43,859 nt of DNA from Cytophagaceae bacterium (GTDB taxonomy: Bacteria; Bacteroidota; Bacteroidia; Cytophagales; Spirosomataceae): positions 1 to 43,859 of the forward strand of contig CANHXO010000007.1 of NCBI GenBank assembly GCA_947464595.1, given 5' to 3'. Positions 3,826-43,859 of the stretch are shown piece by piece; the stretch's first letter is position 1, and every line of letters begins with the position of its first letter. Made by a program: the position numbers and the translations under genes. The notes under the pieces were generated by a model, which had not been told where the DNA came from, ran no database searches, and saw only the letters and a list, made by a program, of their open reading frames with translations.

Positions 3826-5940
3826 TTAAAATTTTAAGTGAATTTGACCCCATAAACTTCTTCCTACACCATTGATACCAGATCCATGCATGCGGTAATC
3901 GACATCGCCAATATTTTGAGCTTGTAAAGAAATGCTAAAGTGAGAATTAAATAGGTAATTGGCCTGAACATTGATTATTGCCCACCCAGGTGTTCCTGAG
4001 GGGTTCATTCGATTATCTGCTTTATCTCCTGCACTTAACCTATTTTGAGTAGCAGCAAATAAAAGTTCAGAATTTAAAAACAGTTTTTTTCTTGAATAGC
4101 TTAGGTTAAAGCCACCATGAAACGGAGGTATGCGCCGCATGGGTTCGTTTAATGTTACGCTCTGGCCATAGACGTAGGAAATATTAGCTTTGGTAGAAAT
4201 GGAATTTGAAAGATCAAATCGGCCACTCCATTCTGCTCCTCGTAAAAATGCTTGATCCACATTTCTTTTTTCGTACACTGAATAGCCCTGAATAACATTG
4301 GACGTTTTTATGCGGGTGATTAAATTTTCCAATTCAGTTTGGAAAAGGGTAAATTCCTGAAAAAAGGCAGCTTTTGAAATTTTGATACCCATCTCATAAT
4401 TTTGAGAATACTCGGGCTTTAGATCAAAAGCAGGTAGCTCATACCTGAAATCTACAATACCCAGACTGCCCAAATCGTCCATATTTGGCGCCCTGAACCC
4501 TGAACTTGTATTTACATAGATGGAGATTCCTGAAGTGATAGCGCGGGCTATTCCTAATGAATAGACTAAAGCACTTGATTTTACCTTCGATAAACCCAGT
4601 GTGGTATCAGGCAAACTAGCCACGTTTTGGTGAAAGCGCAAACCGGTTTCCACTTGCCATGCATTGAAGTCTAAATGATGGATGGAATAGACGGATTGGT
4701 ATTGATATCCAGCATTATTTGGGTAAAGTCCCCTTAAGGGTTTGATCAAATTACTAATTAAATTAATATCCTCCCGGGTACTGTTTATCCGGTCATTAAA
4801 ATAATCGATGCCACTATGAGCGGACCATTTTGGAGAAAATTGACTTTGTATATCGGCCAAAATTCCAATAGTATTCACTAGGTCTCTTTCTGCACGAAGA
4901 GTTGAAGATGCATTTTTTTGAAGTTTTCTTTGTTCGATGCTGATTTGTTGGGATACGGAAAGCTCGATTTTTTTAAAAATGGGATTTTCGTATTGACCAA
5001 TAGCTTTTAAATAGCTTCTTTGGAATTTTTGCAACTCCATTTCATTGATTTTGAAATTTTCCAATTTGATTTTATGAAAAACGGGGACTTGGGTTTGCTG
5101 AGTGGTTTGAATCAGACCTTCCAAAACCCATGTTTTTGAAACTTTTTGGCGAATTTTGCCAAAAAAATCCCACTCATTATAACCTGTTGGACCTTGCAAC
5201 CCTAAACCACCCCCTCTTACTATATCACCAAATTTTTTATTAGCACCTACCAAAATGATACCCGTATTTTCTGATGCATAACTCATTTTTACCTGCTCGC
5301 TCAGCTCCATTCCTTGCGTGGTAATTCGCGCAGACAATTGGCCTCCAAAGGTTTTTTGAGCTGCAAATTCAGGCTGAAGCGTGAAGAAATTTACGACACC
5401 CGTTAATGCATCTGATCCATATTGGACGGATCCGCTCCCTTTTAACAATTCAATTTTGGAGATTATCGACGGGTCTATGGTATTCAAGTATTGGTTTGGA
5501 CCGTAGCGAAATGTGGAATTATTAAATCGAATTCCGTCGATAATGAGTAGCGTTTGATTCCCTGTTAAGCCCCTGACAAATGCAGAACCACCTCCTAAAT
5601 TCGTTTTTTGAATGAAGACTCCTGGGATATTCGAAAGCATATCTGGAGTAGCACGAGGTGCCAAATGATCAATATCTTTATGCGTGAAGACACTAACGGA
5701 ATAGGGAGTTTTTAAAGCCGAAATTTGTTGCCGACTAGCACTAACAACAACATTTGCTAGGGTGTCGGGATTATTTATTTGTCCAAAACTCCCATATGGA
5801 AGAATCCAAGTAACTGATAAAATAAAAATGAGCCATTTTTTATGTCCTTTAGCTTTACTAACTTTTGAAAAGTTAGTAAAGCTTAGGACATACCCATAAA
5901 AATAAACCGGTGGAAACGGAATAAAAAACTTAATCGTCAT
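3826..5940 (-). CDS. TonB-dependent receptor (BtuB/FepA-like), 5' end carrying a hairpin repeat
   Basis: The plug domain begins at about residue 60 (NVVVSASRQQ, MLSNIPGVFIQ, FVRGLTGNQTLLIIDGIRFN, KGSGSVQYGSDALTGVVNF). About 530 barrel residues follow, ending in WGQIHLKF. The only in-frame ATG (5940) overlaps the end of the upstream phosphoesterase gene by 11 bases, suggesting coupled translation. The signal-peptide-like stretch (KKWLIFILSVTWILPYGSFG, Q next) starts only near residue 34, and no ATG, GTG or TTG lies in frame nearer to it. The intervening codons are largely the palindromic repeat at 5841-5892. Either the signal peptide has a very long n-region or a non-standard start is used. 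Ligand unknown; pairing with a phosphoesterase suggests phosphate-containing or metal substrates, which is inference. Confidence 0.88.
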   Translation of the reverse strand: MTIKFFIPFPPVYFYGYVLSFTNFSKVSKAKGHKKWLIFILSVTWILPYGSFGQINNPDTLANVVVSASRQQISALKTPYSVSVFTHKDIDHLAPRATPDMLSNIPGVFIQKTNLGGGSAFVRGLTGNQTLLIIDGIRFNNSTFRYGPNQYLNTIDPSIISKIELLKGSGSVQYGSDALTGVVNFFTLQPEFAAQKTFGGQLSARITTQGMELSEQVKMSYASENTGIILVGANKKFGDIVRGGGLGLQGPTGYNEWDFFGKIRQKVSKTWVLEGLIQTTQQTQVPVFHKIKLENFKINEMELQKFQRSYLKAIGQYENPIFKKIELSVSQQISIEQRKLQKNASSTLRAERDLVNTIGILADIQSQFSPKWSAHSGIDYFNDRINSTREDINLISNLIKPLRGLYPNNAGYQYQSVYSIHHLDFNAWQVETGLRFHQNVASLPDTTLGLSKVKSSALVYSLGIARAITSGISIYVNTSSGFRAPNMDDLGSLGIVDFRYELPAFDLKPEYSQNYEMGIKISKAAFFQEFTLFQTELENLITRIKTSNVIQGYSVYEKRNVDQAFLRGAEWSGRFDLSNSISTKANISYVYGQSVTLNEPMRRIPPFHGGFNLSYSRKKLFLNSELLFAATQNRLSAGDKADNRMNPSGTPGWAIINVQANYLFNSHFSISLQAQNIGDVDYRMHGSGINGVGRSLWGQIHLKF
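5841..5892 (-). repeat. REP-like hairpin repeat, copy 1 (inside the TonB receptor 5' end)
   Basis: Read on the minus strand: outer arm TATGTCCT, one unpaired A, inner arm AGCTTTACTAACTTTT, a central C, the inverted inner arm, two unpaired A, then outer arm AGGACATA. The inner 16-bp and outer 8-bp stems are perfect. The inner part, including the unequal A/AA bulges, is identical to copy 2 at 43236-43287, while most of the outer arm differs. The 36-base core (one A through two A) is a multiple of three and is open in the receptor reading frame. Its likely mobilising enzyme is the RAYT at the window end. Confidence 0.85.
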
Positions 5941-29306: not shown

Positions 29307-32300
29307 ATGATCAATTCAATAATTTCATTTAGCATCCGCAATAAATTAGTTGTGGGAATTTTTATGATCGGCTTAATTGCTTGGGGAAGTTATTCTTTAA
29401 GCCAATTGCCCATCGACGCCTTGCCCGATATTACATCGAATCAAGTACAGGTAATCACTCAGTCGCCGGCATTGGCAGCGGCCGAAGTGGAAAAATTTGT
29501 CACCTATCCTTTAGAAATTTCATTACGAACGATTCCTAATGTACGTGATATACGTTCAATTTCACGGATGGGACTTTCTATCATTACTGTCGTCTTTGAG
29601 GATGAGGTGGCGATGGAAGTGGCGCGCCAACAAGTTTCTGAAAAGTTAAAGGGAGCTGAGCCATATTTATTGAAGGGTGCTGGAGTGCCTGAAATGGCTC
29701 CTATTACCACCGGCCTTGGAGAATTTTATCAATATACCTTGGAAGTTGACCCTGCTTTTGAAAATCAATATTCATTAGCTGATTTAAGAACCTACCAAGA
29801 TTGGATCGTTAAGCGCCAATTATTAGGAATTAAAGGGGTTGTTGAAGTAAGTTCTTTTGGGGGGAATTTAAAACAATATGAGGTTGCCATCAATCCTGAA
29901 AGGATAAGCGCTGCTCATGTGTCCATGAATCAGATTTTTTCAGCACTCGAAAATAATAATTCAAATTCGGGTGGAAGTTATTTGGAAAAAGGGACCGATG
30001 TATATTTCATTAGGTCAGAGGGGATGTTGAACTCTTTAGATGACATTGAAAATACAGTTGTAGCGCAAAGGGGTCCTGGCGGTTTACCTATTTTAGTCAA
30101 AGATGTTGCAACCGTTCAGTTTGGTAAGGCCGTACGCTATGGGGCAATGACCAGAAATGGGAAAGGAGAGGTGGTCGGCGCCGTGATGCTTTTATTGAAA
30201 GGGGCCAATGCTAATAATGTCGTTAAAGATGTGAAGTTGAGATTGGAATCGATCCAAAAAACAATGCCTCAAGGGATTAAAATCGTGCCTTACTTAGATC
30301 GAAGTGTCTTAATCGGGAAATCCATTTCTACCGTAGAAAAGAACTTGTTGGAAGGGGGATTGATTGTCGTTTTTATTTTGGTATTGCTTCTTGGAAATCT
30401 TAGGGCGGGTCTAATTGTCGCTTCTGTGATTCCACTCTGTCTTCTTTTTGCATTTGCGATGATGCATTTATTCGGCGTATCCGCTAATTTGATGAGCCTT
30501 GGAGCGATAGATTTCGGCTTAATTGTGGACGGTGCAGTCATCATTGTCGAGTCCATTATCCATCGATTGCATCTGCATCGAAAGGGAGAGGTATTGAGTC
30601 AACATGCCATGGATGAAGAAGTGACCGTCTCATCACAATCCATTTTTAAGTCGGCGGCTTTTGGCGTCATCATCATTTTAATTGTTTATTTGCCCATTAT
30701 GGCCCTAGGGGGGATTGAAGGTAAGATGTTTAGGCCTATGGCACAAACAGTGAGCTTTGCCATTTTTGGAGCCTTATTACTTTCTTTGACCTACGTCCCA
30801 ATGATGTCAGCCTTGTTTTTGAATAAAAAAATAAGTCATAAATTGACCATTGCGGATCGAATCATGCACTTGTTGTACCGGGGCTATAAACCCATAGTTG
30901 ATTGGGCCTTGAAGTCGAGAAGATGGGTGATTTTAAGTTCGGGGATTTTATTTTTTGGTAGTATTTGGCTTTTCACAACCTTAGGTGGGGAGTTTATCCC
31001 CGAATTAAATGAAGGTGATTTTGCGGTGGAGGCGATTTTGCCCACAAACGCCAGCTTATCTCAAAGTATTCACATGAATACGGAGGCGCAAAAACTATTG
31101 ATGAAAAAGTTTCCAAATGAAATAAAGCAAGTGGTATCTCGTATTGGTGCTTCCGAAATCCCTACAGATCCTATGGGAATTAATGCATGTGATCTTCTAA
31201 TTATTTTAAAGGAACCCTCCGAGTGGAAGGCTGCAAAGACACCTCAAGAATTAGAAGAAAAAATGGACCGCGCATTAGATGTTTTTCCAGAAGTTAATTT
31301 CGAATTTACGCAGCCTATTCAAATGCGATTTAATGAATTGATTGCCGGAGTTAAGTCCGACATTGCCGTAAAAATATTTGGAGAAGACCTAGATGAGCTT
31401 TTTTCTCACGCGACAGAAGCGGCTAGATACATTCGAAAAATTGACGGAGTCGGAGATATTAAGGTGCAACAAATTGATGGGATTCCTCAGCTTCTTGTTA
31501 AGTTTAATCGCAACAAAATGGCGCAATATGGACTTCAAATTCAGGACGTCAATCGAATGATTAAAATGACATTTGCTGGGGAGACGGCAGGAATTGTCAT
31601 GGAAGGGGAAAAACGTTTTGATCTAGTTGTTAGAATGGATTCTGCGCATCGAACAGATATTCAAAATCTGAGGGAACTGTATATCGATTTACCGAATGGC
31701 TCTCACATTCCCTTGCAGGAAGTAGCTGAAGTAGATTATGAAAATGCGCCTGTTGAAATTGCCCGTGATAACACGCACCGTAGAATTACCATTGGGATCA
31801 ATGTCCGAAATCGGGATGTGGAAAGCGTAGTTTCCGATATCCAAACCGTGATGAAAAATAAGGTAGTTTTACCTGCCGGTTATTATGTGACTTATGGAGG
31901 TACGTTTGAAAATTTAGTTGCTGCAAAGTCCCGACTTTCATTGGTGGTTCCCGTCGCATTAGCGCTTATTTTTATTTTGCTCTTTTTTACATTTCAATCT
32001 TTTGTAGAAGCATCCATCATATATTTAGCCATACCGCTTTCTGCCATTGGAGGTATTTGGGCTCTTTGGATACGAGATATGCCATTTTCTGTTTCCGCCG
32101 GCATTGGATTTATTGCACTCTTTGGAGTAGCCGTGCTGAATGGAATCGTATTGCTTTCGTTCTTTAAAACGCTAGCAAATGAAGGATTAAGTGTCAAAGA
32201 ACGATTGGCCAAAGGACTTGAGTTGCGATTCAGACCCGTGATCATGACAGCTTCTGTTGCTTCTTTAGGTTTTCTGCCGATGGCCCTCAGCCAATCACCA

Positions 32301-33626
32301 GGTGCTGAAGTCCAAAGGCCATTAGCGACGGTGGTTATAGGAGGGTTAATTACAGCTACTTTTTTAACATTAGTTGTAATTCCCGTTGTTTATTCAATCA
32401 TTATGACAAGAAAAGAACGAAAATTGAAGGAAAAGTCTTTGGGACTTATTGCATTACTGTTTTGTTTTAGCTTTAATATGATCGCTCAAAATCCAACAAA
32501 ATTGAGTCTCCAAAATTGCCTTGATTACGCTCAAAAAAACAATAAGTTAATTCAAACAGGAAATATAGAGGTGCAAGCAGCGGAGGCATTAATTGGCACC
32601 GGTCGCGAATTACCCAAAGGATCCGTTGATTTTCAATATGGTAAAACCCAGACCTACTTTAGCCAAGACTATACCATCATAGCTAATCAAAATATCCCAT
32701 GGCCAAGCATTTTAAAAGCCCAAGTTAAAGCGCTTAGTTCCCAAAAAATAGTGGCTGAAAAAAGACTCAAGATCACTCAAAATTTAGTCGCTTCTTCCGT
32801 AAAATGGTATTATTATTTATTGATGGGCCAACAAAAAAACCACGAATTTCTTCAAAAGCAGGATAGTATTTATTCGCAAATGAAAAAAGCTGCGGCCTTA
32901 AAATTTAAGGAGGGGGAAACCAATCGATTGGAAATGATTGCTGCGGAATCGAGGTTGCGCGAGTTCCAACAGAAACGAATCGCCTTGGAATCTGACATGA
33001 AAATTAGCCTTCAAAATCTAGCGTATTGGATGAATTATCCACAAGCATTTGAGATATTGGCTAATGAAAAATTAAATCGCGAGATTAACTTATTGGCCCA
33101 TCAGGTTTCTAATAACCCTCAAATGCAATTGATTGACCAACAAATTGACGCGGGAAAATTGCAAGTGCAGGTGGAGCGCGAAAAATTAAAGCCTGATTTA
33201 CGTTTTGGTGTGGTGTCTCAAAGTATTGAAAATTTTGGGGGCCAAAATTATGTGCAAGCAGGTATCGGAATTCCAATTTTTGCTAAGGGGCAAAAGGCCA
33301 GAGTTACCGCATCCGAGAAACAAGTTCAAGTGTTGGAAAGCCAGAAAGATCAAAATTTAGATCAATTATCTAGGGAATATACTTCCTATTTGGCTCAGTT
33401 AAACAAGTACTCCAACTCACTCACCTATTTTCAAGAAACTGCTTTGCCTCAGGCAAATTGGTTGGAATCTACGGCATTAAAAAGCTATAAGGCGGGGGAA
33501 ATTGAGTACGTTGAAATGTTGCAAAATGCCCAACAAGCGTGGCAGATTAGAGAACAATATGTACAAGAGATTCTGGCTTACAATCAAACAGTCATTCAAA
33601 TCGAAACAATCTTAGGCAATGAATAA
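29307..33626 (+). CDS. CzcA/CusA-type heavy-metal RND pump fused to a TolC-type outer-membrane protein
   Basis: 1439 residues where a CzcA is usually ~1040. Residues 1-~1040 are an RND permease with two large periplasmic loops and twelve helices. The heavy-metal signature IDFGLIVDGAVIIVE places Asp402, Asp408 and Glu415 exactly as in CzcA. A basic linker (TRKERKLKEK) leads into a hydrophobic, signal-peptide-like segment (LGLIALLFCFSFNMIAQ, ~1045-1061). The rest (~1065-1439) is an outer-membrane efflux protein: helical repeats rich in Gln/Lys/Glu with LQNCLDYAQKNN, ANQNIPWPSIL and VQAGIGIPIF strands. The fusion gives a pump and its exit duct from one gene. The metal (Cu, Zn, Co or Cd) is not resolved. 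Confidence 0.92.
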   Translation: MINSIISFSIRNKLVVGIFMIGLIAWGSYSLSQLPIDALPDITSNQVQVITQSPALAAAEVEKFVTYPLEISLRTIPNVRDIRSISRMGLSIITVVFEDEVAMEVARQQVSEKLKGAEPYLLKGAGVPEMAPITTGLGEFYQYTLEVDPAFENQYSLADLRTYQDWIVKRQLLGIKGVVEVSSFGGNLKQYEVAINPERISAAHVSMNQIFSALENNNSNSGGSYLEKGTDVYFIRSEGMLNSLDDIENTVVAQRGPGGLPILVKDVATVQFGKAVRYGAMTRNGKGEVVGAVMLLLKGANANNVVKDVKLRLESIQKTMPQGIKIVPYLDRSVLIGKSISTVEKNLLEGGLIVVFILVLLLGNLRAGLIVASVIPLCLLFAFAMMHLFGVSANLMSLGAIDFGLIVDGAVIIVESIIHRLHLHRKGEVLSQHAMDEEVTVSSQSIFKSAAFGVIIILIVYLPIMALGGIEGKMFRPMAQTVSFAIFGALLLSLTYVPMMSALFLNKKISHKLTIADRIMHLLYRGYKPIVDWALKSRRWVILSSGILFFGSIWLFTTLGGEFIPELNEGDFAVEAILPTNASLSQSIHMNTEAQKLLMKKFPNEIKQVVSRIGASEIPTDPMGINACDLLIILKEPSEWKAAKTPQELEEKMDRALDVFPEVNFEFTQPIQMRFNELIAGVKSDIAVKIFGEDLDELFSHATEAARYIRKIDGVGDIKVQQIDGIPQLLVKFNRNKMAQYGLQIQDVNRMIKMTFAGETAGIVMEGEKRFDLVVRMDSAHRTDIQNLRELYIDLPNGSHIPLQEVAEVDYENAPVEIARDNTHRRITIGINVRNRDVESVVSDIQTVMKNKVVLPAGYYVTYGGTFENLVAAKSRLSLVVPVALALIFILLFFTFQSFVEASIIYLAIPLSAIGGIWALWIRDMPFSVSAGIGFIALFGVAVLNGIVLLSFFKTLANEGLSVKERLAKGLELRFRPVIMTASVASLGFLPMALSQSPGAEVQRPLATVVIGGLITATFLTLVVIPVVYSIIMTRKERKLKEKSLGLIALLFCFSFNMIAQNPTKLSLQNCLDYAQKNNKLIQTGNIEVQAAEALIGTGRELPKGSVDFQYGKTQTYFSQDYTIIANQNIPWPSILKAQVKALSSQKIVAEKRLKITQNLVASSVKWYYYLLMGQQKNHEFLQKQDSIYSQMKKAAALKFKEGETNRLEMIAAESRLREFQQKRIALESDMKISLQNLAYWMNYPQAFEILANEKLNREINLLAHQVSNNPQMQLIDQQIDAGKLQVQVEREKLKPDLRFGVVSQSIENFGGQNYVQAGIGIPIFAKGQKARVTASEKQVQVLESQKDQNLDQLSREYTSYLAQLNKYSNSLTYFQETALPQANWLESTALKSYKAGEIEYVEMLQNAQQAWQIREQYVQEILAYNQTVIQIETILGNE

Positions 33627-41580: not shown

Positions 41581-42635
41581 TGGTGGAAATGGAATTAGTG
41601 CCCAAGTTGAAGGCAATCAGAAATTTAACTTTAGAAGAGTTGCGGCAAGAAATGCTCGAACACAATGAGCCGGGGTTTCGTGCTAAACAAGTCTATGAGT
41701 GGATTTGGAAAAAATCGGTTCGGTCTTTTGACCAAATGGCGAATATTCCGAAAGAAACAAGGAGCTGGCTGGGGACCAACTACTCACTTCAGTGTGTAGA
41801 AACGGCAGAATGCCAAATAAGTTCTGATCGCACCATAAAATCTAGTTTTTCGCTGCATGACGGAAATTTGATTGAAGGAGTTTTAATCCCTACTCGTGAA
41901 AGAATGACGGCCTGTGTGTCATCTCAAGTGGGATGTTCGCTTACTTGTAGTTTTTGTGCCACAGGTTACATGGATCGAAAAAGGAATTTAGAGGCCTTCG
42001 AGATATATGACCAAGTGGTATTGATTCGAGATCAAGCTCAAGAAAAATATGGCATTCCTTTGACAAATATTGTCTATATGGGAATGGGAGAGCCTCTTTT
42101 GAATTATTCCAATGTGTTGAAGTCTGTTGAAATGATAACGTCCCCTGAGGGATTAGGTATGGCTTCGCGCAGAATTACAGTGTCAACAGCCGGGATCGCC
42201 AAAATGATTAAGAAGTTAGGGGATGATCAAGTGAAGTTTAATCTTGCGCTATCGCTTCATGCGGCAAATGATACCAAAAGAAATCAGATTATGCCCATCA
42301 ACGAATCCAATACGTTGGAGGCTTTGTCAGAGGCTTTGCGTTATTTTTATGATAAAACAGAAAATGAAATAACCTTGGAGTATATTATGTTTAATAAATT
42401 TAATGATACGGTCGATGATGCTCGCGAACTCTATGATTTTGCGAAGAAATTGCCATGTAAAATTAACATTATTGAATATAACCCCATTGCTCAAGCCAAT
42501 TTTGTGAATGCAGAAGCAGATGCATTAGCTAAATTTGTCGCTTTTTTAGAGAGTAAAAAAATGATTGTCAATGTTCGTCGTTCTCGTGGCAAAGATATTG
42601 ATGCCGCTTGTGGGCAGTTGGCCGGTAAAAAATAA
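41580..42635 (+). CDS. rlmN: Dual-specificity 23S rRNA/tRNA adenine-C2 methyltransferase
   Basis: Radical SAM methyltransferase for A2503 of 23S rRNA and A37 of some tRNAs. The 4Fe-4S motif is CSLTCSFCATG (Cys119, Cys123, Cys126). Cys112 and a C-terminal Cys344 (DAACGQLAGKK) are the redox pair needed for methyl transfer. VYMGMGEPLLNY is the SAM-binding GGE-like segment, and SLHAANDTKRNQIMPIN is typical. ATG at 41580 overlaps the previous stop; ATG at 41589 is an alternative. Confidence 0.95.
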   Translation: MVEMELVPKLKAIRNLTLEELRQEMLEHNEPGFRAKQVYEWIWKKSVRSFDQMANIPKETRSWLGTNYSLQCVETAECQISSDRTIKSSFSLHDGNLIEGVLIPTRERMTACVSSQVGCSLTCSFCATGYMDRKRNLEAFEIYDQVVLIRDQAQEKYGIPLTNIVYMGMGEPLLNYSNVLKSVEMITSPEGLGMASRRITVSTAGIAKMIKKLGDDQVKFNLALSLHAANDTKRNQIMPINESNTLEALSEALRYFYDKTENEITLEYIMFNKFNDTVDDARELYDFAKKLPCKINIIEYNPIAQANFVNAEADALAKFVAFLESKKMIVNVRRSRGKDIDAACGQLAGKK

Positions 42636-42638
42636 ATA

Positions 42639-43217
42639 ATGGCGAATACTCTATTTCCTATTTTTTTAAAGCTTGACCAATTGAACACCTTGGTCGTTGG
42701 CGGGGGAAATGTAGCCCTAGAAAAAGTCTCTGCTATTTTGCGAAATGCACCAAATGCTCGCGTGACCATGATAGCCCCATTTTTTAGGGAAGATACCTTG
42801 GAATTTATCAAGAAGTTCCCTTTGGTTAGTTTTGAAATTCGCGAATTTTTAGAGGGGGATTTAGATGGCCGCGATTTAATTATTTGCGCGACTGATAATG
42901 TTCAATTGCATCAAAAAATCAAGATCTTAGCCGCCAGCCAACATTTACTTTGCAATGTGGCTGATACTCCAGATTTATGTGATTTTTATTTAGGTTCGAT
43001 TGTTCAAAAAGGCGACTTAAAGATAGCTATATCAACGAATGGGAAGTCACCTACATTAGCTAAACGGATTAGAGCGTTTTTGGAAGATTTAATCCCTATG
43101 GACATTCAAGAATCCATGGATGGCTTAGAAGCTTATCGAAAATCACTGAAAGGCGATTTTGAGGCAAAAATTAAGGCTTTAAATGAACTCACTAAGGGCT
43201 TGACTTTCAGGAAATAA
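42639..43217 (+). CDS. Precorrin-2 dehydrogenase/sirohydrochlorin ferrochelatase-like (SirC/Met8)
   Basis: 192-residue bifunctional-type siroheme enzyme lacking the methyltransferase half of CysG. N-terminal NAD-binding LVVGGGNVALEK (18-29), then FREDTLEFIKKF, LIICATDNVQLHQKI and NVADTPDLCDFYLGSIVQKGDLKIAISTNGKSPTLAKRIR, all in the SirC/Met8 order. It oxidises precorrin-2 to sirohydrochlorin; the ferrochelatase step is possible but not proven. Siroheme serves sulfite reductase, fitting the cysteine genes elsewhere in the window. No uroporphyrinogen methyltransferase gene is adjacent. Confidence 0.88.
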   Translation: MANTLFPIFLKLDQLNTLVVGGGNVALEKVSAILRNAPNARVTMIAPFFREDTLEFIKKFPLVSFEIREFLEGDLDGRDLIICATDNVQLHQKIKILAASQHLLCNVADTPDLCDFYLGSIVQKGDLKIAISTNGKSPTLAKRIRAFLEDLIPMDIQESMDGLEAYRKSLKGDFEAKIKALNELTKGLTFRK

Positions 43218-43235
43218 CTGTATCTTTTTTTACTC

Positions 43236-43287
43236 CTTTCGCTAAGCTTTACTAACTTTTCAAAAGTTAGTAAAGCTAAAGCGAAAG
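43236..43287 (+). repeat. REP-like hairpin repeat, copy 2 (upstream of RAYT)
   Basis: Read on the plus strand: outer arm CTTTCGCT, one unpaired A, inner arm AGCTTTACTAACTTTT, a central C, the inverted inner arm, two unpaired A, then outer arm AGCGAAAG. The inner part equals copy 1 (5841-5892) while the outer arms differ but stay complementary. It lies 18 bases after the SirC-like stop and 102 bases before the RAYT start. T-runs are 5' of the stem, so it is not a typical terminator. No GTAG/GGAG tetranucleotide of proteobacterial REPs is seen at its foot. Confidence 0.85.
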
Positions 43288-43389
43288 AAATTAAAACAAA
43301 CACCTAGATAAATTAAATCACTTTATTGATAATCATATACTTGCATTATTTTAAACCAGGCAAACAGTGTATATTTTGAAAAAATCAAA

Positions 43390-43859
43390 ATGGCTCATCT
43401 GGAACATTATCATACGAAATTTGAGCAAGGTAAATTTTACCATATATACAATCGGTCAATAGACAAAAAATTACTGTTTAAGTCTAGTGAAAATTATGAG
43501 TTCTTTTTAAGAAGGTGGATGAAGTATATGGGTGAATGTTTTGATGTTTATGCGTATTGCTTGATGGGAAATCATTATCATTTTTTGGTAAATGTTAGAT
43601 TTACTAAAAATACTGGATCTACGCATGATTATATAGCCCATAATTTACAAAGGTTGTTTCAATCTTACGCATTAGCATTTAATCTTCAACATTCCAGGAC
43701 AGGCACGCTTTTCCAAAAGCCTTATAAACGTGTACATGTGGATAGTGATGAATATGTAAGCAAGCTTATTCATTATATACATAATAATCCGCAAAAACAT
43801 GAAGTTGTTTATGATTTTCGTACTTGGAAGTGGAGTTCGTATCATGCAATTTTAAAGAA
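43390..43859 (+). CDS. REP-associated tyrosine transposase (RAYT), 3' truncated by window end
   Basis: IS200-like Y1 transposase of the RAYT class; 156 residues are visible from ATG 43390 and the frame continues past the window. Family features: FEQGKFYHIYNRSIDKKLLF near the start, YAYCLMGNHYHFLVNV with the metal-binding HxH (His62, His64), HNLQRLFQSYALAFNLQHSRTGTLFQKPYKR, and SKLIHYIHNNPQKHEV with the probable catalytic Tyr129. RAYTs act on hairpins of REP elements as single strands. The gene follows a REP-like hairpin by 102 bases. No terminal repeats of a full insertion sequence are visible, as expected for a domesticated RAYT. Confidence 0.9.
   Translation, partial: MAHLEHYHTKFEQGKFYHIYNRSIDKKLLFKSSENYEFFLRRWMKYMGECFDVYAYCLMGNHYHFLVNVRFTKNTGSTHDYIAHNLQRLFQSYALAFNLQHSRTGTLFQKPYKRVHVDSDEYVSKLIHYIHNNPQKHEVVYDFRTWKWSSYHAILK

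Follow-up and report, generated by a model that had tools for sequence, protein, structure and literature searches.

The hairpin repeats described here are probably REP-like elements of a Bacteroidota RAYT (REP-associated tyrosine transposase), with an inner stem that tracks the RAYT lineage and an outer stem that is specific to the locus; an activity of the RAYT on the hairpins is predicted. The REP/RAYT frame put forward in the original prediction is strongly supported by hairpins on both sides of the RAYT gene, by cores specific to each RAYT lineage, by co-occurrence of cores and gene, and by their joint loss.

Hairpin copies in the window, the genome and the genus

The window (the whole stretch of DNA that was analysed, 43,859 nucleotides in length) has two hairpin copies, one of which is next to a RAYT gene:

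5841..5892, minus strand: hairpin copy 1, outer arms TATGTCC(T)/(A)GGACATA around the core
5851..5883, unstranded: inner 33-nt hairpin of copy 1, two 16-nt arms and a 1-nt loop
42639..43217, plus strand: gene with a sirohaem-synthase N-terminal domain, always upstream of the RAYT locus in the genus and serving as its marker
43236..43287, plus strand: hairpin copy 2, outer arms CTTTCGC(T)/(A)GCGAAAG around the core
43245..43277, unstranded: inner 33-nt hairpin of copy 2, two 16-nt arms and a 1-nt loop
43390..43857, plus strand: RAYT gene (Y1/HUH), first 156 codons, cut by the contig end, with NHYH and YIHNNP motifs

Read in matching orientation, the two copies share 40 identical bases (CTAAG, a 29-nt core and CTAAAG), and this stretch includes the A/AA bulge and the central C. 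At the outer end of each arm, six bases differ between the copies (TATGTC in copy 1, CTTTCG in copy 2) and are fully complementary within each; two 16-base palindromes remain once the 36-base centre is removed. These properties had been read correctly at the outset. The CTAG centre also ascribed to the outer palindromes is present in both window copies but is not a general rule; a CTAG centre in every outer palindrome was rejected, as other loci are centred, by our reading, on TCGA, TTAA, TGCA or CCGG. In a hairpin scan of the window, copies 1 and 2 are the sole hairpins with arms of at least 16 pairs, and their DNA fold z-scores are -9.0 and -7.1. No Rfam family is found in the window at the gathering threshold. 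An intrinsic terminator at copy 2 was rejected, as the surrounding region (42600-43859) has no terminator-like site.

Copy 1 is situated just upstream of a TonB-dependent receptor gene (minus-strand ORF 3826-5940) or within its first codons. The reading frame of this ORF is open through copy 1 in the source genome (positions 5841-5940), several sister genomes appear by eye to have a start codon upstream of the hairpin, and in the G157 version of the locus the frame is broken by a stop. The receptor may carry the translated hairpin as an N-terminal extension. Elsewhere in the window, positions 29307-33626 are a single 1439-aa ORF whose translation resembles an RND efflux pump with a TolC-like outer-membrane channel after it.

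The source genome, G000 (2.2 Mb in 140 contigs, 74% complete), contains 14 copies of the core with up to three mismatches, and the reversed-pattern control gives none. The repeat is thus more than two unrelated copies, and chance is rejected as well. A core scan of GTDB contigs gave at least 106 stretches (L041-L146), from metagenome-assembled genomes titled Spirosoma fluviale, Cytophagaceae bacterium or Cytophagales bacterium. Together with loci from genomes of the genus, and after copies less than 40 bases from the end of a fetched stretch were dropped and duplicates merged, the matches listed comprise at least 133 distinct copies in 24 locus groups. The 14 copies of the source genome fall in 14 different groups, each common to other species; these copies are therefore old, with no sign of recent transposition. 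Because copies were searched for by core, the core seems invariant outside the loop, and unbiased evidence on its state comes from loci fetched by way of a neighbouring gene.

Exact cores number 4-22 per genome in RAYT clade A and 5-7 in clade C, in incomplete assemblies and with degenerate copies left out; the high copy number of REPtrons (>100) is not reached. The copies are mainly intergenic. The core is not spanned by a kept ORF in any of the 24 group representatives, although g14 overlaps the last 9 bases of an ORF and group 1 may be located in the first codons of its ORF. By our reading of the ORF table for the loci listed, 10 of the 24 groups lie between convergent genes. Most copies are single hairpins with a short loop and not the REPIN doublet of two inverted REPs and a spacer. 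A few hairpin clusters are present in clade B (G137:C4, G132:C20).

A foot of the GTAG/GGAG type had been said to be lacking, and this is borne out: GTAG is found at just 5 of 266 clade-A ends among the copies listed. TAG occurs at exactly one end in 112 of the 133 clade-A copies listed and at both ends in none, the opposite end being mostly AAG or CAG. In clade B, 31 of 47 copies have TAC at each end and 8 of 47 have TAG at each; clade C shows a mixture. The TAG foot was dropped as a shared guide, since the one-sided TAG holds in clade A only.

The RAYT gene, its flanking hairpins and its loss

The RAYT gene begins 102 bases after copy 2, with an ATG at 43390, as originally placed. NH[YF]H and YIHxNP motifs are present in the aligned RAYTs of clades A, B and C, and two RAYTs of a second type have YLHFNP. 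The Pfam Y1_Tnp match scores 23.3 bits against a cutoff of 23, and the sole NCBIfam match, REP_Tyr_transpos, is below its cutoff (48.8 vs 80 bits). A phmmer search against the PDB gave nothing at E 0.01, and the structure prediction is too poor to use (mean pLDDT 38.9). The gene is found at one ancestral locus beside the sirohaem gene in 24 of 38 genomes of the genus. Identity between clades is 48-53% for the RAYT vs 71-76% for the neighbour gene, so that the RAYT evolves faster.

The core sequence follows the RAYT clade: AGCTTTACTAACTTTT in clade A, TACCTTTGCCAATCC or TAGCTTTGCCAATCC in clade B, and AGATTTGACAACTTTT in clade C. Core A is found in 11 genomes, core B in 11 and core C in 6; ten genomes have none of the three, and no two of them share a genome. 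Of these genomes, 8 with core A, 10 with core B and 6 with core C have the locus RAYT, and none of the ten coreless ones does. Dispersed cores occur in 24/24 genomes with the locus RAYT vs 4/14 without it (Fisher p=2.1e-6, a value that ignores kinship).

The RAYT is flanked by hairpins on both sides in all 24 genomes that have it at this locus. In clade A (8/8) the two hairpins are 742 bp apart in seven genomes, and in the source genome they are split between contigs: copy 2 is the upstream partner, with its TAG end towards the RAYT gene, and the downstream partner is probably the copy at G000:C47:4406-4438. In clade C (6/6) the downstream hairpin of G041 is altered in both arms. In clade B (10/10) nine genomes have core B, and in G154 both flanking hairpins (L272, ~1344 and ~2131) carry a B core changed in both arms (CTTTGGCAATCC..GGTTTGCCAAAG). 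Altered cores are therefore not a mark of RAYT loss alone, because the paired changes in G041 and G154 occur with the RAYT present. The inverted orientation of the flanking hairpins can be read from the gene-facing TAG ends in clade A; the cores of clades B and C are near-symmetric and have no orientation. The G154 flanking hairpins have CTTTGGCAA in place of CTTTGCCAA, the same change in both arms, and the dispersed copies of this genome keep core B. Perhaps G154 represents a core switch caught midway.

Other genera of the family show the same arrangement. By an automatic test, 11 of 16 usable RAYT loci have a matched hairpin on either side, vs 0 of 55 control gene loci; the RAYT loci are the closest 17 of 60 other-genus genomes with a RAYT match, L175 being unusable. 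Within the genus the same test found 24 of 26 and missed L270 and L276, and in the other genera it missed L170-L173 and L176. At L270, L276, L171, L173 and L176, other examination did show cores or hairpins on either side. Second RAYTs are located at other loci in six clade-C genomes, G144, G154 and G164, with hairpin pairs of their own where examined (five clade-C genomes and G164). The flanking 33-nt hairpins of the second clade-C lineage (L277-L281) and of G164 (L276) read AACGCTGTCAAGGTTT.. and AACGCTGCCGGGGTC... Between the upstream hairpin and the RAYT start there is a TTATCAAnnnnTTGATAA-like palindrome (window ~43322-43335; L153, L155 and others), which by eye is present in clade B and C loci and degenerate in clade A; it is possibly an operator.

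Four genomes have cores but no locus RAYT: G157, G168, G164 and G169. G169 is set aside, as its contig stops inside the sirohaem gene. In the other three the RAYT is missing together with its hairpins, which by comparison with relatives points to loss. G157 and G168 are clade-A genomes in which the RAYT and both flanking hairpins have gone. They are not sisters; RAYT-bearing genomes branch before and between them in a five-gene tree with some weak inner support. One RAYT, that of G057, has an in-frame stop, yet this genome holds six cores.

Three loci fetched by neighbour gene are canonical in 7/7, 6/6 and 4/4 cases in RAYT-bearing genomes; in G157 the same loci are altered, empty and intact. 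G168 is empty at g9 and differs at g3 by two bases beside the loop, a change that hardly exceeds the loop variation of other copies. The g9 hairpin is absent from both G157 and G168 and present in 6/6 RAYT-bearing genomes. Both empty sites keep one TTTAGC of the flanking direct repeat and have no palindrome, and are best read as later deletion of the palindrome between direct repeats. Their reading as pre-insertion sites was rejected, as on the tree the filled G107 and G115 bracket G168, and the filled G152 and others are near G157. A check for target duplication of the MITE type found a flanking direct repeat (TTTAGC) at g9 only, which fits deletion, and no pre-insertion site.

The 13 copies located in G157 include five intact, one with a single change, three with both arms changed yet paired, and four gone. 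In two of the three doubly altered hairpins AACTTTT..AAAAGTT has become AAATTT..AAATTT. The sequence covered is 716 kb of ~2.6 Mb; the count is from 384 kb plus loci fetched separately, with the rearranged g22 and the contig-edge g10 left out. Copies per clade-A genome are 8-22 with the RAYT (n=8) vs 6 and 5 without it (n=2). The one-sided Mann-Whitney p for fewer copies is 0.022, with two RAYT-less genomes, incomplete assemblies and partly fetched DNA.

Outer arms and the origin of the paired stems

In the 24 locus groups listed, each left flank was compared with its own right flank and with the right flanks of other groups. Twelve groups have a mean perfectly complementary run of at least 7 (7-11 in nearly all copies, the exceptions being one g3 copy and two g7 copies with a run of 6), and the other twelve have runs of 2-6. 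Among swapped partners, 2-2.5% attain a run of 7 (permutation p=1e-4). Outer-arm pairing is real but not universal. The suggestion that outer arms are always self-complementary holds at half of the loci listed, and at the other half the non-complementary arms once named as evidence against it are found. Outer pairing is therefore not required for persistence, because 12 of 24 loci lack complementary arms beside the core.

Several other properties of the two classes were observed. By our reading of the ORF table, 8 of 12 unpaired groups are between convergent genes and 2 of 12 paired groups. Two unpaired groups, g10 and g11, display complementary arms farther out (by eye). A motif, (A)AACTGAT, lies ~40 nt from the core at L004, L006 and L009 (C35 and C103 of the source genome) and at sister loci; by eye it is common to several unpaired-arm groups, with a GC-rich flank on the other side of the core. 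Within clade A, orthologous outer arms show one compensated pair in 12 groups, and 466 of 480 cells are paired; the arms are conserved and not covarying, in a count of the 60 of 73 copies that are in the commonest register. Some outer arms are shared between loci (g1 and g20, g12 and g15).

The evidence for paired outer arms from other genera is stronger than that from the genus itself. In G068 one core family, CTTTGCCAA/TTGGCAAAG beside the RAYT and CTTTGCCAACGTT and CGTTGCCAACGTT in two dispersed copies, is within long stems. The dispersed copies (L418:11453-11535 and L430:15945-16027), the two found in 397 kb, have 41-bp stems in which the inner core is near-identical and the outer 27 nt are unrelated and perfectly paired. 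In three sister species of another genus (G116, G100 and G091), in which the locus is 90% identical, orthologous hairpin arms have changed jointly, 7-8-nt indels included. The upstream hairpin is AATTAGCACCT|core|AGGTGCTAATT in G116, AATCAGGATCCGCACCCC|core|GGGGTGCGGATCCTGATT in G100 and AATTAGCACCAGCACCGCT|core|AGGGTGCTGATGCTAATT in G091. The downstream hairpin has changed likewise, and pairing is perfect or nearly so within each species. The hairpin hp1 of this locus changed little, with one compensated pair in G100 and the outermost pairs broken in G091. Selection that keeps the outer stem paired, one of two origins first suggested, thus finds partial support in the concerted arm change at this one locus, but not within clade A, where arms are mostly just conserved.

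Long near-perfect hairpins are abundant in G068 (L416-L435; e.g. L428:10202-10284, L434:8918-8983), mostly without the RAYT core. Its 397 kb hold 28 hairpins with arms of at least 16, of which 25 have arms of at least 20 and 12 of at least 30; five of the 28 hold the core family. In G157, 716 kb hold 26 with arms of at least 16, two of them of at least 20. Some G068 hairpins look like bidirectional terminators with stems lengthened outward by perfect arms.

In the REP-like reading, the HUH/Y1 enzyme whose gene is beside copy 2 would recognise the hairpins in their folded, single-stranded DNA form. The RAYT would read the inner stem and would long ago have copied or moved the hairpins; the RAYT, or selection acting through it, would keep the copies intact, and after its loss they would erode by deletion or drift. 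The outer stem might not be read as sequence but might aid hairpin formation, such that pairing alone matters. It might change mainly by arm-to-arm template switching in replication, with one arm rewritten from the other, which could give rise to locus-specific paired outer arms. Template switching is favoured because single compensatory steps would hardly produce joint 7-8-nt indels; the little-changed hp1 speaks against it. We tentatively infer it as the source of the outer arms, and the data fit selection on pairing too. It is rather unlikely that the hairpins write their own outer stems, i.e., that replication-coupled or RAYT-assisted template switching copies flanking DNA into the inverted partner arm after insertion. 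If so, a locus may gain a private, perfectly paired outer stem around a RAYT-specific core, and the element builds a palindrome partly out of its own insertion site; among the fully unrelated pairs seen, the longest has 27 nt.

The other origin first suggested, insertion of the core into the loop of existing palindromes such as terminator hairpins, appears improbable. A single-stranded DNA transposase would target exposed loops, and the outer arms would be old targets. Unrelated perfect outer arms around one core family are consistent with this, as are the coreless hairpins of G068, which show that targets exist there, and the conservation of outer arms among orthologues expected of old sequence. 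However, the search turned up no empty palindrome; the g9 sites that are empty in two genomes, each with one TTTAGC, are later deletions by the tree. The twelve loci listed without an outer palindrome beside the core, the joint change of orthologous arms in G116, G100 and G091, and the outer arms shared by g1/g20 and g12/g15, as if copied with the core, also argue against it.

The hairpins might instead be kept because their RNA or DNA structure serves the host (in bidirectional termination, protection of mRNA 3' ends or chromosome structure), with pairing maintained by compensatory mutation and the RAYT only their historical source. Intergenic placement, with 10 of 24 groups listed between convergent genes, long conservation at shared loci, and the three altered but paired hairpins of the RAYT-less G157 speak for a host role. 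It is nevertheless doubtful, as copy 2 has no terminator-like site, copies are fewer where the RAYT is lost, each RAYT lineage has one inner-core family beyond what pairing alone demands, and joint 7-8-nt indels in both arms are hard to obtain by single compensatory steps. Far less credible is a binding site of a dimeric regulator, although the 33-nt palindrome is perfect, intergenic and in some cases upstream of a gene. As a single operator it would be long and uniform, many copies are between convergent genes, and the cores switch with the RAYT lineage and flank the RAYT on both sides.

Comparison with known REP/RAYT systems

Published REP/RAYT biology rests mainly, in the literature consulted, on GTAG-tagged gammaproteobacteria. 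For a further phylum this genus provides a natural experiment, in which a single RAYT locus comes in three lineages that differ in core and RAYT losses leave fewer hairpins. A conserved inner stem and a locus-specific, often paired outer stem suggest which part the enzyme reads, and the hairpin loci offer sites for following arm-to-arm palindrome rewriting between sister species.

Gammaproteobacterial RAYTs are described as flanked by two inverted REPs and as co-evolving with them; REP abundance tracks RAYT presence, orthologous flanking REPs keep the palindrome despite point changes, and RAYTs evolve faster than their neighbours (Nunvar et al., 2010, PMC2817692). The present system is similar in co-evolution, RAYT-linked abundance, palindrome upkeep and faster RAYT evolution. 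Gammaproteobacterial REPs as there portrayed have a 5' GT[AG]G head and usually >100 copies, whereas here there is no such head and clade A has 4-22 copies; paired outer arms that vary by locus, at half of the loci listed, also differ from those REPs (PMC2817692). REPINs are likewise small non-autonomous repeats with a single-copy, vertically inherited RAYT, but consist of two inverted REPs and a variable spacer as depicted in those reports (PMC8049555, PMC3116915), and here there is one short-loop hairpin per copy. TIRYTs/TIRtrons comprise RAYT-like genes flanked by non-GTAG inverted repeats, some self-complementary and dispersed, which resembles the arrangement here (Di Nocera et al., 2013, PMC3733652). 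Their GGGGWSAS motif, as given in that paper, was not noticed here without a dedicated search. Most TIRYTs are assigned to subclass 2.1, for which PMC6006769 reports no REP-like structures.

Quasipalindrome template switching is reported to homogenise inverted-repeat arms and to give multi-base changes, in yeast coding sequences and in E. coli (PMC8604942, PMC7202029); the relevant passages do not mention RAYT-linked hairpins, the subject here.

The closest counterpart is TnpAY1 subclass 2.6 of Bacteroidetes (Bertels group 5), for which manual inspection revealed 'atypical secondary structures' (Quentin et al., 2018, PMC6006769). Both have a Bacteroidota host, a gene flanked by non-GT[AG]G hairpins and hairpin copies elsewhere in the genome; the GT[AG]G foot of REPtrons, absent here, is also missing from subclass 2.6 as there described. 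The published subclass motifs are NH[LIV]H, WQ and YIH[QN]NP. The Y motif fits the clade-A RAYT; the HuH motif is NH[YF]H here vs NH[LIV]H, and the W motif is not placed here (PMC6006769). A two-part stem with locus-specific outer arms is found here and is not described for subclass 2.6 in the relevant passages of that paper; no report of such a stem was found in the open-licence papers searched, supplements aside. As PMC2817692 and PMC6006769 describe such systems, in the portions that bear on them, the REP/RAYT nature of the hairpins is a case of an already known kind. The system is close to the published 'atypical' Bacteroidetes subclass, and the two-part stem is what is new.
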